Assembly (NCBI RefSeq): GCF_000236865.1
Contig: NZ_HE611014.1
Coordinates: 65,820 to 129,819, forward strand
DNA length: 64,000 nt
DNA from: Senegalimassilia anaerobia JC110
GTDB taxonomy: Bacteria; Actinomycetota; Coriobacteriia; Coriobacteriales; Eggerthellaceae
Direction of reading: 5' to 3'
Within the stretch, counting starts at the first letter, position 1, and each line of letters opens with the position of its first letter. Positions 39,191 to 51,101 of the stretch are shown here, piece by piece. Under the pieces are notes generated by a model that saw only the letters and a program-made list of their open reading frames with translations, searched no databases and was not told where the DNA came from. Made by a program: the position numbers and the translations under genes.

Positions 39191-42055
39191 ATGAAAACGA
39201 TCACGAACATAGCCGACCGGCTGTTCCGCAAGGTGGAGCCGGTCGATTCCGCTTTCGGAAGCGAAGCTGCCGAGGCAGCCGTAGAAGGCGCTGCAGGGGA
39301 AACCGGAGCGCAAGCCAAGTCGCAAACCGGGGCCGTTTTCCCCGCCGAAACCCGCACGCCGGCGTTTTGCGCCATCGACTGCCCGGGTCGCTGCCCGCTT
39401 GAGCTGCACCTGCGCGACGGCGAGCTTGCGCGCGTGTCGGCGAACAAGGCCGCCCCCGCGTGCCACCGCGGGCTGTCCATGCGCGCGTGGGCGAACAGCC
39501 CCGACCGCCTTATGTGGCCCCTTCGCCGCGTCGGGCCGCGCGGCTCCGCGCAATTCGAGCGCGTGACTTGGGACGAAGCGCTTGACGAAATAGCCGACCG
39601 ACTGGCCCGCATCCGCCGCGAGCACGGCAGCGAGTCCATCTACCTGGCTTACACCACCGGGCAATCATGCACCACGGCCGACCCGTTCGAGCGGTTGATG
39701 AACTGCTTCGGCGGCTTCCTCGACCACTACAACAACTATTCGAATCCGCAGATCAACGCCATGGTGCGCAGCATATACGGGCCCGGCGCGCTCTACCCTG
39801 GCGGCAGCGAGCTCGACGCCGCCGCCGATGCGCGGCTCGTGCTGGTGTTCGGCGCTTCGCCAGCGGAAACGGGGACGGGCCGCGCCACCTGGCACGGCGC
39901 CTGGGACCGCGTAGTCGAGCAGGTGGGCGAACGCGACGGGCGCATCGTGATGGTGGACCCCCGCCGCAACGGCTCCATTCCCAAGCGCAAGAAGTCCGCG
40001 AGCAGCGAGCGCGAGGGGCAGGCGTCGGCGGTTTGCGACGCATCGCTGACAGGCAGCAGCACGCACAAGGGACGGCCAGCGGCACCCGCTAGCGGCGGCG
40101 CGCTATCAGCCGATGCCGCGCCAGGCGGGAAAACCGTTTCCTGGTTGCCCATCAACCCTGGGACCGACGGCGCGCTGGCGGCGGCGCTTTTGCATGAGCT
40201 GGCGTTCACGCACAACGCGCTGGACTGGGATTTCCTGCGCGAGCGCTGCATCGGGTTCACCGACAAGACGCTACCCGAACGTCGGCGCGGCCTTGGTCTT
40301 TCCGTAATGGATTACCTGCGCGGCACCGGCTACGAACATGTGGCGAAAACGCCCGCGTGGGCCGCGGCGATCACCGGCATCCCCGCGGACGACATCCGCG
40401 AACTGGCCGCGCAGCTTGCCACTGCACGGCCCGTGTTCATCATGCAGGGCTGGGGTCCGCAGCGTCGCAGCAACGGCGAGATGACCAGCGGCATGATCAT
40501 GATGCTGGCAGCGGCGCTCGGCCAAGTTGGCCTGCCCGGCACGAACAACGGCATGAACATCGCCTGGGGCGGCGGCTTCCTCACGCGTGTTTCCGCAGGT
40601 AAGAATCCTGTTCCCTTCCGCATCCCGGCGTATCGGTTCCTCGATGCCATCGAGAACGGGGAATCGCTGGGCACACGCGAAGGCGTTCGCGGGCTGCCAG
40701 AAGCGGGTTACGTTAATGCGGGGGGATCCGTCTTCGCAGCGGAAGGGAAGCCAGAGCAATCTTCCCCTGGCAAACGTGCAACAGATTCCGTACAACATCA
40801 AGATAGCGCCGCACACCTTCCCAGCAGCATCAAGGCGATCATCTGCCACGGCGGCAACTGCCTGACCAACCAGCACGGCGATGTCAATCGCGCGCACCGC
40901 GTGCTGGGCGACCCTTCGAAGTGCGAGTTCATCCTGAACGTGGACGTGGAGTTCACCGATTCCGCACGCTACGCCGACATCGTGCTACCCGACTTGTTCC
41001 GCATGGAGCAGGAAAGCGCGATGGATGCCGACACCCGGGGCCGGCGCATCGCTGTCAGCACCGGGGAGCTGGGCGCGCGCTTCGAGCGTCGCGGCGCCTG
41101 GAACACGTGCGTTGAGCTGGCGAAACGCTGGGAAATCGAAAACGCGTTCACCGAAGGGCGCACAGAAGGCGAATGGATCCGTCGTCTGTATGAGGGCGAC
41201 CGCGATCGTAGCACCGGGTTGCCAACGTTCGACCGGCTGCTCGAGGATGGGCTCGCCTGGCGGGCCGACCGCGCCGAGCCGTTCGTAGCGCTAGCCGATT
41301 GGCGACACGACCCCGATGCGCATCCGCTGGACACGCCGTCGGGCAAGATCGAGCTGTTCAGCGAACTACTTGCCGCCGCTGCCGAAACGCTACGCGACAC
41401 GCCCGACGAGGGCGCCGTCACGCCCATCCCCACCTACGTACCCGAATGGGGCCCAGCGGAGTTCGCCGTTGAACGGCCCGCAACCGACGGGGCGCAGGAA
41501 CCGGACGCTGAGCTGCGCGCGGACGGCCACGGATGCGAATCGGTCGCATTCCTTCCCGCAGGCGGCCGGGAATGCGAATCGGACGCCGAACTTCCCGCAA
41601 ACGGTCGCAAAAGCGAATCAAACACCGAACCCGCCTGCGACCAGCCGCTTCGCGTGTTCGGCTTCCATAGCGTCGCGCGCATCCATTCGTCATGGGGCAA
41701 CGTGCCCGCCGTTTCGCGGCGCGTGCCGCAGGTCATCTCGATCAACCCCGCGGACGCCGACGCACGGGGCATCGCAACCGGCGACCTGGTGGAGGCGTCG
41801 AACCGTTTCGGCACGCTGCGCCTTCCCGCGCACGTCACCGAAGACGTGATCGCCGGAACCATCGTCATGCCGCAAGGAGCCTGGTGGCAAGCGGAAAGCC
41901 GCGGCACGCAAAACGCACCCGGGGCCACCAGCGCCCGCACCGCCTACCCCGTCGACATCGGCGGCTGCGTCAACACACTCACTACCAGCCGCCCCTCGCC
42001 GCTAGCGTTCGGCAATCCCCAACACACCTGCTGGTGCCGCCTTCGCAAACCCTGA
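39191..42055 (+). CDS. Molybdopterin oxidoreductase (DMSO-reductase family), orphan catalytic subunit
   Basis: About 954 residues. Near residue 70 a [11 protein letters not shown] motif and a fourth Cys (ACHRG) 23 residues later bind an iron-sulfur cluster; [12 protein letters not shown] and the [11 protein letters not shown] region, whose Ser is the likely Mo ligand as in DmsA, follow. The C-terminal dinucleotide-binding domain begins at about [14 protein letters not shown]. Two low-complexity insertions (near 40000-40130 and 41500-41640) are not typical of the family. No Tat signal is visible, and no ferredoxin-like or membrane-anchor subunit is adjacent. Start uncertain: this ATG has GGGG very close, an ATG 39 bases upstream has no site. 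Substrate unknown. Confidence 0.85.
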
Positions 42056-47183: not shown

Positions 47184-48293
47184 TCAAACGCAACACTTGA
47201 AACGTTTATATTTCGCGATAAGGAAATTCTCGTTCGGACGCAAGGCTTTCTCTTTAGGCAGAAACAACTTCTTGCCATCGAGATCTGCGTACTGCCCGTC
47301 CGAAATCCGCGGACTTGCCTCCAGGCGCATCGAGGCAGGGTTAATGCCCAGCAAATAGCTGTCAAATAGCAAGTGAATATCAGATCGCAGCAAAATGCCG
47401 TTCTCCACAATATTGCTTTGGGTACCGCGGTAATCAAGGATGTGCGCTGCTTGCAACACCTCGTTCGTGTCGAACCCCGTAACCGCGCAATGCCCTTCAT
47501 AAGCCTTGAACAGGTCTTTTCTAAACGCTTGCTGCCCTTGACGCACCATGTGACGAACAACGGAAAAACGGCGGCGGTCCTCTTCCATGCTTTCCGGATC
47601 GCGTATCTCATCTGCTTGAAGATGCTCATCAACCGTTGCCGACTCCCCCATTTCAGCTTGCAGAGTCGCACTGGCAAATAAATGCTCGGTCTCCGGCGTA
47701 ACGGGCCCATGCAAGGTAAACAACTCGTTCTCGGGATTGAACTCCTCAACGAATGCAAGAAAGCGCAGGTACGAACTCGACGACGAGTTCTGCTGAAGAA
47801 ACACGCCAACGGGAACGCCGTCCATCAGGCAATTCACCAGTTTTTGGTTCCAGTGCATATCGGTCGTACCGCCGGAATTATTTTGATGGGCGGAGTAATA
47901 CAAGATCCACGTTCCATCGCCTAAATCAACTCGAGCACCATCGTTGTTATCGCTGTATAAGCTGTTATAAGCAACTGTCACCGTTGCCGCATACCTATGA
48001 CGACTCGGCACATGAATCCCACGTTGCGCCACATGCTTGAATTGAACTCCGGGCAATGTACTGCCATGGAATCGGATGCCTTCATTCCCAGTTTCATTCA
48101 TAAACCACGCATATAGGTTGCGATGGCTTTCTGGATCATCCTCAAGAGGAATCAAACGTAACGCACGCTCGATCGATAAGTTCGTATACGGGAGGAAGTC
48201 GTCAACGCATATCGAACCATCAATGCGCGCCAGAGGGAACGGCACCTCCGCTGTTTCCACCCTAGTCGATATGTTTGCATCTCTCGAAGCCAT
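47184..48293 (-). CDS. HNH endonuclease, restriction-like
   Basis: About 369 residues. The C-terminal HNH module (about 285-345) reads AAHILDYRG, then SNIVENGILLRSDIHLLFD, as in HNH_2 proteins of modification-dependent or stand-alone restriction enzymes. The N-terminal 220 residues contain HVPSRHRYAATVTVAYNSLY and DLGDGTWILYYSAHQNNSGG, suggesting a DNA-reading domain of the SRA-like or similar kind; that is uncertain. No methyltransferase is adjacent. GC near 50 percent against 60-70 percent around it points to acquisition. Start uncertain: ATG at 48293, or a TTG 14 codons upstream; neither has a clear ribosome binding site. Confidence 0.78.
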   Translation of the reverse strand: MASRDANISTRVETAEVPFPLARIDGSICVDDFLPYTNLSIERALRLIPLEDDPESHRNLYAWFMNETGNEGIRFHGSTLPGVQFKHVAQRGIHVPSRHRYAATVTVAYNSLYSDNNDGARVDLGDGTWILYYSAHQNNSGGTTDMHWNQKLVNCLMDGVPVGVFLQQNSSSSSYLRFLAFVEEFNPENELFTLHGPVTPETEHLFASATLQAEMGESATVDEHLQADEIRDPESMEEDRRRFSVVRHMVRQGQQAFRKDLFKAYEGHCAVTGFDTNEVLQAAHILDYRGTQSNIVENGILLRSDIHLLFDSYLLGINPASMRLEASPRISDGQYADLDGKKLFLPKEKALRPNENFLIAKYKRFKCCV

Positions 48294-48415
48294 ACTGCAA
48301 TTCTGCCAGCGTCCGCTTCGTTCGACAACAACCAATTCGGCAGAAGACGCCGAGGCGAAAAGCCGTTGCGCAACAGCAAAAAACTAGCCCGCAACCCCCC
48401 CAAACGACTCACACC

Positions 48416-49120
48416 TTAAAACAACGTCCCCTGCCCAAGCGCTGCCGGGGCTGCCGGTTGCTCCGGGGCCGCCGTCAACGCGAACCCTTCGCGATTTGCT
48501 AGCTTTTGCCAGTTGGCCACCAGGCTGGGCCACGGCGCGCGCAACCACCAACGCGCCTCGGCGAGCGTTAACGCCAGGGGCATACGGTTGTGCACGAGAG
48601 CAACGTTGGCGTTCGGGCGCGTAGTCACCACCGAGAAGCAGCCTTGACCGCATACCGTCGCCAGCAGCAGCGGCGAACCTTCGCCGCTTTCGAAACGATA
48701 CTGCTGCTTGATTCGCCGCCCCGTTTTCGGGCTGCGCACCGTTTGAGTTGCATGCGCCTCGAAGAATCCGCCCGTCACCACGATGCCGCGACCCTGCGCA
48801 ATCGGTTGCTCCCACATGCCCGGGTTCGGCCCCATCGCCGTTTCCAAGCGCGTGTTGTACACGGGGCGTTGCTGCCATTCAACAGGGAATCCCCAGTTCA
48901 AACGTTCAATAGCCAGCTTGCTTTCCGGACCGCGGACGATTACGTCAACGCCCGCGCCAGGGAACGCATCTTCACCCGGCTCAACCTGCGCCGTCGCGGC
49001 TTCACCAGCCATCGGACGCGCAGGCCAATCGAGCTGCGCGTTCACAGGCGAATTCGCCTGCAGCTCGCGCACAATTTCCGCAACCTCATCCCACGTAACG
49101 ACCGTGAACCTTCTGCACAC
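48416..49120 (-). CDS. SOS response-associated peptidase (SRAP, YedK/HMCES family)
   Basis: A 234-residue protein that caps abasic sites in single-stranded DNA through Cys2. It begins MCRRFT, with Cys2 free after Met removal; the Asn and Glu of the active site are in RPVYNTRLET and GGFFEAH, and VHNRMPLAL carries the catalytic His. All key positions are kept although the second motif is MCRRF rather than the common MCGRF. Family length is typical. Three evenly spaced palindromes lie 55-182 bases upstream and could control it. Neighbour of the HNH endonuclease, 80-120 bases away. Confidence 0.9.
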   Translation of the reverse strand: MCRRFTVVTWDEVAEIVRELQANSPVNAQLDWPARPMAGEAATAQVEPGEDAFPGAGVDVIVRGPESKLAIERLNWGFPVEWQQRPVYNTRLETAMGPNPGMWEQPIAQGRGIVVTGGFFEAHATQTVRSPKTGRRIKQQYRFESGEGSPLLLATVCGQGCFSVVTTRPNANVALVHNRMPLALTLAEARWWLRAPWPSLVANWQKLANREGFALTAAPEQPAAPAALGQGTLF

Positions 49121-49174: not shown

Positions 49175-49302
49175 TTATACGTTTTCGCGATTCGTATAAA
49201 GAAGGGGCCTGGAATCTCATTTACTTTATACGATTACCGGGATTCGTATAACTTAGCGCGCGTTTTCGAGCGCTTCTTTATACGATTTCGCGTTCCGTAT
49301 AA
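49175..49302. promoter_or_regulatory. Array of three near-identical palindromes at 51-52 base spacing
   Basis: Copies at 49175-49199, 49226-49251 and 49278-49302 each read TTATACG-N11 or N12-CGTATAA; the interiors are also alike (TTTCGCG or TACCGGG core). The stretches between copies are 26 bases each and unrelated. All lie upstream of the SRAP gene and downstream of groEL. The regular phase (about five helical turns) and symmetry fit cooperative binding of a dimeric regulator. I know of no family with this site. Confidence 0.6.
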
Positions 49303-49421: not shown

Positions 49422-51020
49422 TTACTTCTCTTCCTTATCCTTCTTGTCAGCCTCGGTGATGCTGCAGTTGGTGATGAGGATGAGCGAGGCAACGGACGCG
49501 GCGGCCTGCAGGGCCGTGACGGTGACCTTGGCCGGGTCGGCAACGCCCATGGAGATCATGTCGCCATACTCGCCGGTCTCGCAATCCAGGCCGAAGCCGG
49601 GCTGAGCCTCAAGCGCCTTGGCAACCTCGACGTCGCCGTTGTAGCCGGCGTTGCTGCACAGCGCGCGCATGGGCTCCTCGAGTGCCTTGCGCAGGATATC
49701 AACGCCGAAGCGCTCCTCCTCGTTGGCGACTTCCACCTGGTCAAGCGCCTTGGACGCCTGGATCAGGGCAACGCCGCCGCCGGCGAGCAGGCCTTGGCTT
49801 GCGGCCGAGCGCGTTGCGCGCAGGGCGTCCTGGATGCGGCTGCGGATCTCGTTCATCTCGGTCTCGGTTGCAGCACCGACGCTCATGACGGCGATGCCGC
49901 CGGACAGCTTCGCCAAGCGCTCGCGCATGACGTCCAGCTCGTAGTCGGAATGCGGGTTCTTCAGCTCGTTGCGGATGGCCTCGCAGCGCTTCTCGATGGC
50001 CTCCTGCTTGCCCTTGCCGCCGATGATGAGCGTGCGGCTCTTCGTGATCTGCACGCTTGCGGCGCGGCCGAGCATGCTCTTCTTGGCATCGGCCAGCGAC
50101 AGGCCGCGCTCGGGGGAGATGACCTCGCCGCCGGTGAGGATGGCCATGTCCTCCAGCTCGGCCTTGCGGCGCTCCTCGGCGCCGGGGCACATGACGGCTG
50201 CGCTGATGAGCGTGCCCTTCTGGCGATTCATGAGCAGGGAGTTCAGGGACTCGCCGCGCACGTCATCGGCCACGATGAGCAGCGGATGGCCGGACTGCAT
50301 GACCTCCTCCAGCACGGGCACGACGTCCTTGAAGTTGTCTGCCAGGCGCTGGTCGGTGATCAGGATGTAGGGCTGCTCCAGCTCGCCGGTCATGGAACCC
50401 ATGTCGTCGGCCATGTACGGGGAGATGAAGCCGCGGTCGAACAGCATGCCCTTCTTGACTTCCAGGTCGATGCCGAACTTGGTGGACTTCTCAACGGAGA
50501 TGACGCCGTCCTGGCCGATCTCGTCCAGGGCCTCGGCAATCTTCGCGCCGATCTCGGGGTCGCCCGAGGAAACGGTGGCGATCTCGGCCATCTGCTCGCG
50601 CGTGGTCACCTGCGTGGCGGCCTTCAGCAGCTCGTCGGATGCGACGTCGGCGGCCTTCTGGATGCCGCGGCGCAGCGCCAGCGGGTCGTTGCCGGCGGTA
50701 ACGTAGCGCACGCCCTCGCGCACGATGGCATCGGCGAGCAGCGTTGCCGTGGAAGTGCCGTCGCCGGCCTCGTTGTTCGCGGCGGTCGCAGCCTCGCGGA
50801 CCACCTGCAGGCCCATCTTCTCCACATGGTCGTATGCGCCCACGTGCGCGGCAACGGTAGCGCCGTCGTTGGAGACGTTGGGATGGCGCTCGCCCTTCTT
50901 GGTGATGCCGACGTAGCGGCCCTTCGGGCCGATGGTCACGCGCACCGCGTCGGCCAGCTTCGCCACACCGGTCGCAAGCTTCTCGCGCGTCTCGTTGTCG
51001 TATGCGATTTCCTTAGCCAT
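49422..51020 (-). CDS. groEL: Chaperonin GroEL
   Basis: A 532-residue 60-kDa chaperonin subunit that refolds proteins in an ATP-driven double ring. Motifs: VTIGPKGRYVG, GDGTSTATLLADAI with the catalytic Asp, and LLAGGGVALI. The C-terminus is TEADKKDKEEK instead of the usual GGM repeats, and no groES gene is adjacent. The start at 51020 has AAGGGG about eight bases upstream. The CIRCE operator at 51075-51101 indicates HrcA heat-shock control. It is probably one of two chaperonin loci or depends on a distant groES. Confidence 0.95.
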   Translation of the reverse strand: MAKEIAYDNETREKLATGVAKLADAVRVTIGPKGRYVGITKKGERHPNVSNDGATVAAHVGAYDHVEKMGLQVVREAATAANNEAGDGTSTATLLADAIVREGVRYVTAGNDPLALRRGIQKAADVASDELLKAATQVTTREQMAEIATVSSGDPEIGAKIAEALDEIGQDGVISVEKSTKFGIDLEVKKGMLFDRGFISPYMADDMGSMTGELEQPYILITDQRLADNFKDVVPVLEEVMQSGHPLLIVADDVRGESLNSLLMNRQKGTLISAAVMCPGAEERRKAELEDMAILTGGEVISPERGLSLADAKKSMLGRAASVQITKSRTLIIGGKGKQEAIEKRCEAIRNELKNPHSDYELDVMRERLAKLSGGIAVMSVGAATETEMNEIRSRIQDALRATRSAASQGLLAGGGVALIQASKALDQVEVANEEERFGVDILRKALEEPMRALCSNAGYNGDVEVAKALEAQPGFGLDCETGEYGDMISMGVADPAKVTVTALQAAASVASLILITNCSITEADKKDKEEK

Positions 51021-51074
51021 GCTATGAGCCCCTTCCTTGAGCACGTGCATAACGATATTTGCTACCAAAGAAAG

Positions 51075-51101
51075 TTAGCACTCTTTGCCCACGAGTGCTA
51101 G
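51075..51101 (-). promoter_or_regulatory. CIRCE element (HrcA operator) of groEL
   Basis: TTAGCACTC-N9-GAGTGCTAG matches the 9-9-9 CIRCE consensus (TTAGCACTC-N9-GAGTGCTAA) with one mismatch, 55 bases upstream of the groEL start. HrcA bound here represses the gene until heat shock. Confidence 0.92.

Follow-up and report, generated by a model that had tools for sequence, protein, structure and literature searches.

The three palindromes located between groEL and an SRAP gene in the analysed window, a stretch of 64,000 nucleotides from Senegalimassilia anaerobia JC110, probably represent tandem operator sites of the class that belongs to Fic proteins with a winged HTH (Fic-winged-HTH, CccR/SoFic type), in which the unit would be a pair of facing half-sites and the effect on transcription would likely be repressive. 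We assign the array to this class because of the 26-bp geometry that it shares with Fic promoters and the CccR operator, and because half-sites of this kind track the HTH of the Fic proteins encoded behind them. SoFic is an AMPylating, toxin-like anti-phage protein with a DNA-binding tail, and the operator in the window is an orphan, as its genome carries no SoFic gene.

All three TTATACG-N11/12-CGTATAA copies noticed in the sequence-only reading are exact matches, namely palindrome 1 (TTATACG-N11-CGTATAA, 49175..49199, + strand), palindrome 2 (TTATACG-N12-CGTATAA, 49226..49251, +) and palindrome 3 (TTATACG-N11-CGTATAA, 49278..49302, +), with 0.00 expected from 100 dinucleotide shuffles. The reported regularity also holds, since the start-to-start distances are 51 and 52 bp and both intervals measure 26 bp. 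The description as near-identical copies with similar cores is correct for the arms, which are identical, but not for the cores, which differ and are 11, 12 and 11 bp long. Since the asymmetric left half TTATACGWTT is common to all three copies, the array has a single orientation. It spans the region from the groEL terminator, the T-tract side of which adjoins the right arm of palindrome 3 according to a terminator scan, to 55 bp before the SRAP start (49120), and no consensus sigma-70 promoter was found between the array and SRAP.

In the whole genome, exact-arm palindromes are restricted to this one cluster. With 11-bp spacing, no extra copy was found at one or two mismatches, and matches with three mismatches were fewer than for a reversed control pattern (20 vs 34). 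A dispersed palindromic repeat of the REP/MITE type with many copies per genome, against which the sequence-only reading had wanted its proposal checked, is thereby ruled out. Apart from the known arrays of the window's genus (g1), a search for CGTATAA-N25-28-TTATACG in 398 genomes of the class returned only hairpins unrelated to them, in G056 and in G410, and a single match in G131. A dispersed hairpin, GTGTGTCAGGGGG-CGTATAAC..TGACACAC (L431, L432 and L434, ~1501-1542), is a different repeat that has CGTATAA in common by chance; it was seen in two genomes other than that of the window, with two copies in G410.

The first gene behind the array encodes an SRAP protein of 234 aa (48416..49120, − strand; Pfam PF02586, E 6e-20), and a gene for a restriction-type HNH endonuclease of ~383 aa lies at 47184..48335 (− strand; Pfam PF13391; NCBIfam PT-DNA_restrict and PADLOC HNH, both below full-family level). 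Both genes had been named correctly from the sequence alone. The gene that flanks the array on the opposite side is groEL, in the ORF at 49422..51068 (− strand), the translation of which is 92% identical to that of G001; its true start codon is probably located inside this ORF. LexA boxes and the CIRCE element of HrcA are operators that share with the array a palindromic build and a position close to genes for repair or chaperones, but differ from it in sequence and spacing. The LexA boxes GAAC-N4-GTTC and CTGT-N8-ACAG are not matched by the sites, as had already been recognised, and CIRCE (TTAGCACTC-N9-GAGTGCTAA) was rejected because the array sequence differs. A CIRCE-like site, TTAGCACTC-N9-GAGTGCTAG, sits upstream of groEL instead (51075-51101), in line with ordinary HrcA-type control.

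The sequence-only reading had postulated a cooperative regulator of a DNA-damage or defence unit and tied it to SRAP. A regulator acting on SRAP or on DNA repair, which would read a LexA-like or new damage operator, is favoured by the distance of 55 bp between palindrome 1 and the SRAP start and by the array that precedes SRAP also in G001. However, the motif is present in none of 30 other SRAP promoters of the family, none of which adjoins groEL, and a strong palindrome of any kind is found in two of these 30, in both cases with a different sequence. Moreover, a restriction-modification (R-M) system separates the array from SRAP in G002, and in other genera (g74 and g6) related sites lie beside other genes, far from SRAP, which argues against an SRAP-specific motif. 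The SRAP promoters that lack the motif thus largely refute this reading, and from our point of view it is almost certainly wrong. What stays plausible of the proposal is a cooperative regulator of evenly phased sites ahead of a defence-type unit, since the 26-bp facing half-sites fit a dimer footprint already described, the genus has kept the arms, and the genes behind the array are SRAP and HNH in two species and those of a type II R-M system in the third; the tie to SRAP or DNA damage is unsupported.

While no regulator family had been known for such a site, there is now a lead, as the layout matches that of Fic-HTH (CccR/SoFic-type) operators. The aligned sites show an invariant core with covarying flanks, and a covariance model built from them was searched against 396 genomes. 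In many genera, its matches lie just upstream of a gene for a Fic-domain protein of 410-430 aa (Pfam PF02661; PADLOC SoFic, E ~1e-35). Because these proteins fall below the NCBIfam SoFic equivalog cut-off, we term them "SoFic-type" and not "SoFic". The Fic motif HPFYDGNGRTGR is invariant in their alignment, and the AlphaFold2 model of one relative's protein shows a C-terminal winged HTH and a fold like that of SoFic and CbFic2. A candidate for the co-occurring regulator gene that the sequence-only reading had advised to look for is seen in relatives, where SoFic-type genes stand behind such palindromes, but not in the window genome.

Across the Coriobacteriia, palindromes of the same build are located ~50-110 bp upstream of SoFic-type genes. 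A strong palindrome is present within 200 nt upstream of 43 of the 69 Fic genes, while the controls gave 1 in 345 for coding windows and 4 in 690 for shuffled sequence; 26 of the 69 genes have none in these 200 nt. The half-site sequences vary by genus and the symmetry is retained. When the inverted partner of each palindrome's own half-site was sought in 35 non-redundant Fic promoters, one clear peak emerged at a gap of 25-27 bp, with an identity of 0.44 compared with 0.33 in the best other window and a maximum of 0.31 among 1000 shuffles. Between species, half-site similarity follows that of the HTH of the Fic protein once the catalytic part is controlled for (partial r=0.23, p=0.0005); the reverse test, half-site against catalytic part with the HTH held constant, gave r=-0.05 (p=0.78). 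Given this pairing and this tracking, the simplest reading of the sequence data is that the SoFic-type proteins of the Coriobacteriia would bind their own promoters through the HTH. The literature holds no demonstration of DNA binding by SoFic. In the flanks examined in other genera, neither groEL nor SRAP nor R-M genes were found beside SoFic.

A precedent for such a geometry is CccR of Yersinia pseudotuberculosis, a Fic protein with a C-terminal HTH that represses its own gene via the footprinted operator AGATAATCAT-N26-ATGATAATCT and whose dimer, with HTH domains ~70 A apart, explains the spacing (PMC9755527). Like the CccR operator, with its two inverted 10-bp half-sites 26 bp apart in an upstream position, the window contains ATTCGTATAA-N26-TTATACGATT with the same half-site size and gap. 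Unlike the single pair that CccR has before its own gene, the window contains two tandem pairs with another half-site sequence and no adjoining Fic gene. The promoter arrays of the SoFic-type genes in Coriobacteriia share with the window array the A/T-rich arms, the G/C centre, the 25-27-bp partners and related half-site sequences, but they precede a Fic gene, whereas the window array precedes SRAP/HNH. CbFic2 of Coxiella burnetii is a Fic enzyme with a C-terminal winged HTH that binds DNA and that dimerises on DNA; it differs in that no specific operator is known, the assays having used random DNA (PMC10628234).

Of the features that mark a Fic-wHTH operator, the window array thus has inverted half-sites ~26 bp apart and a half-site of the SoFic-promoter kind, as the model finds Fic promoters and the same half-site occurs in G066; it does not lie in the promoter of a Fic-HTH gene, its neighbours being SRAP and groEL. 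Accordingly spaced seats for two dimers are predicted at 49190..49235 and 49242..49287 (unstranded), each consisting of ATTCGTATAA, a 26-bp gap and TTATACGATT (46 bp), which agrees with the size and gap of the CccR footprint and with the 25-27-bp rule of the Fic promoters. In the mechanism that we infer, the functional unit would be two facing half-sites (CGTATAA ... TTATACG) 26 bp apart and not the single palindrome, which would account for the constancy of the 26-bp intervals despite their unrelated sequences, a feature that the sequence-only reading had recorded without explaining it. Both facing half-sites would be spanned by one dimer whose HTH domains lie far apart, and each palindrome would be the meeting point of neighbouring dimers, contributing one half-site to the left and one to the right. 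The three palindromes could hence seat two bridging dimers and leave two outer half-sites upstream of SRAP/HNH, where the bound protein would act most likely as a repressor of these genes. The array itself may have descended from a SoFic locus.

Comparison within the genus concerns the window's genome (G000) and two other species (G001 and G002); the relatives with named public records are Coriobacteriia, one of them being an Eggerthellaceae MAG of the window's genus. G001 has three copies of the palindrome and G002 has two; in both genomes neighbouring copies are 52 bp apart and the position behind groEL is that of the window array. Three species in all keep a spacing of ~52 bp. The gap between facing half-sites is 26 and 26 bp in the window and 27 bp in G001, G002 and G177. 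Between G000 and G001, 42 of 42 arm bases are identical, while the spacers (26/27 bp) are unalignable, with a likeness at the background of shuffled sequence, and the SRAP proteins are 58% identical. Identical arms next to unalignable spacers indicate that the arms are probably under selection, and the sequence comparison suggests that they are probably still read by something. The cargo behind the array changes, as G001 carries SRAP and the same HNH gene as G000, whereas in G002 the MutH/Sau3AI-type endonuclease and the C5 methyltransferase of a type II R-M system are inserted between array and SRAP (L202:1970-4910). This insert suggests that the region behind groEL is a hotspot for defence genes.

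Neither a SoFic-type gene nor an HTH of the SoFic type was found in G000, G001 or G002; the locus holds no SoFic remnant in these genomes, and the window locus no Fic pseudogene. One could therefore regard the array as a relic of a lost SoFic gene without present function, and there are parallels for operators that stay intact after the Fic gene has decayed or been replaced. In genus g59, the locus that holds a SoFic-type gene in G269 and G284 still has the palindrome in G267, with flanks that are 75-95% identical. In G066, the window's half-site AATCGTATAA occurs in an intact palindrome immediately ahead of a decayed Fic gene, of which the first 65-70 codons are missing and which contains an in-frame stop. 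Against this stand the 42 of 42 arm bases kept between species and the 52-bp spacing retained in three of them, and we thus consider a functionless relic improbable. Arms that are too conserved for a plain relic imply that either another protein reads the array or SoFic is present in further strains. It is possible, though less likely than not, that the array is a selected orphan operator with Fic-dimer geometry, through which another factor, or SoFic supplied by strains or phages, would set the expression of a swappable defence cargo.

A further possibility is that the array is read by a resident transcription factor from a different family, the similarity to Fic geometry being either convergent or taken over. 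This factor would control SRAP/HNH in both G000 and G001, and in G002 the R-M genes. The conservation of the arms in a genus without SoFic points in this direction, since some other protein has to read them if SoFic is indeed missing. However, no such factor was found, the profile search for a SoFic-type HTH in g1 having returned only generic MarR, ArsR and LexA proteins, and the covariance model made from window-type sites recovers Fic promoters and not those of another regulator. We hence regard this explanation as unlikely, though less so than a relic.

It is also conceivable that the palindromes act as RNA or ssDNA hairpins, for instance as terminators or attenuators, or that they are a mobile palindromic repeat. 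In support of this, the outer flanks covary, with 21 two-sided changes compared with 9.4 in shuffles, and some Fic-promoter palindromes reach up to 59 nt. Yet the inner arms are invariant in the aligned set, the window copies show little flank complementarity, and there is one cluster per genome with no dispersed copies. Hairpins further give no account of the 25-27-bp pairing between neighbours, and a symmetric specificity change of a dimer could yield the same covariation. This explanation is hence very improbable for the window array. The nearly perfect Fic-promoter palindromes of 59 nt (L325:9150-9217 and L380:8487-8555) are far longer than a protein footprint needs, and flank complementarity beyond any likely protein contact, up to 59 nt in G269, may reflect hairpin selection or quasipalindrome correction.

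Several other origins were considered and dropped. A similarity search for a phage or plasmid origin gave no meaningful match, and the viral-contig matches of a loose pattern scan, in which cores and flanks do not match, are mostly due to chance. The site is located 58-60 kb from dnaA in G000 and G002 and about 48 kb in G177; a chromosomal-site function was dropped as the site in G007 is 854 kb from dnaA. Site-specific recombination (res, dif or loxP-like) and integron-like ideas were dropped as well, no recombinase gene having been seen beside the sites.

The reading as a Fic-winged-HTH operator would connect SoFic-type anti-phage proteins with a precise DNA signature, namely facing half-sites 25-27 bp apart that recur every 51-52 bp. 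For these proteins it predicts autoregulation by a fast-diverging operator/HTH pair, and it would offer a purely sequence-based route to Fic-HTH regulons. A further suggestion is that an operator of this kind can persist after its own gene is gone and stand before other defence genes, which raises the possibility of cross-regulation in a defence hotspot.

Some further palindromes were noticed along the way. No Fic gene lies beside the related sites of g74 and g6; near the g6 sites, a GC-rich stem-loop sequence behind a TACAAT box (L163, ~1340-1450) gave no Rfam match at the gathering threshold and is possibly a small RNA. Related palindromes, again with no adjoining Fic gene, are found directly behind prophage-like amidase (lysin) genes (L006:1501-1525; L242 and L244:1501-1541) and are perhaps accessory loci of prophages. 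Lastly, a second Fic gene of the window genome (415 aa) has a three-palindrome promoter array of its own (contig C3 ~41416-41525; L282:884-993), GGAAGYGAAA..TTYRCTTCC, in which the copies recur every 41 bp and the gaps measure 17 bp; it has the layout of the window array with another sequence and spacing.
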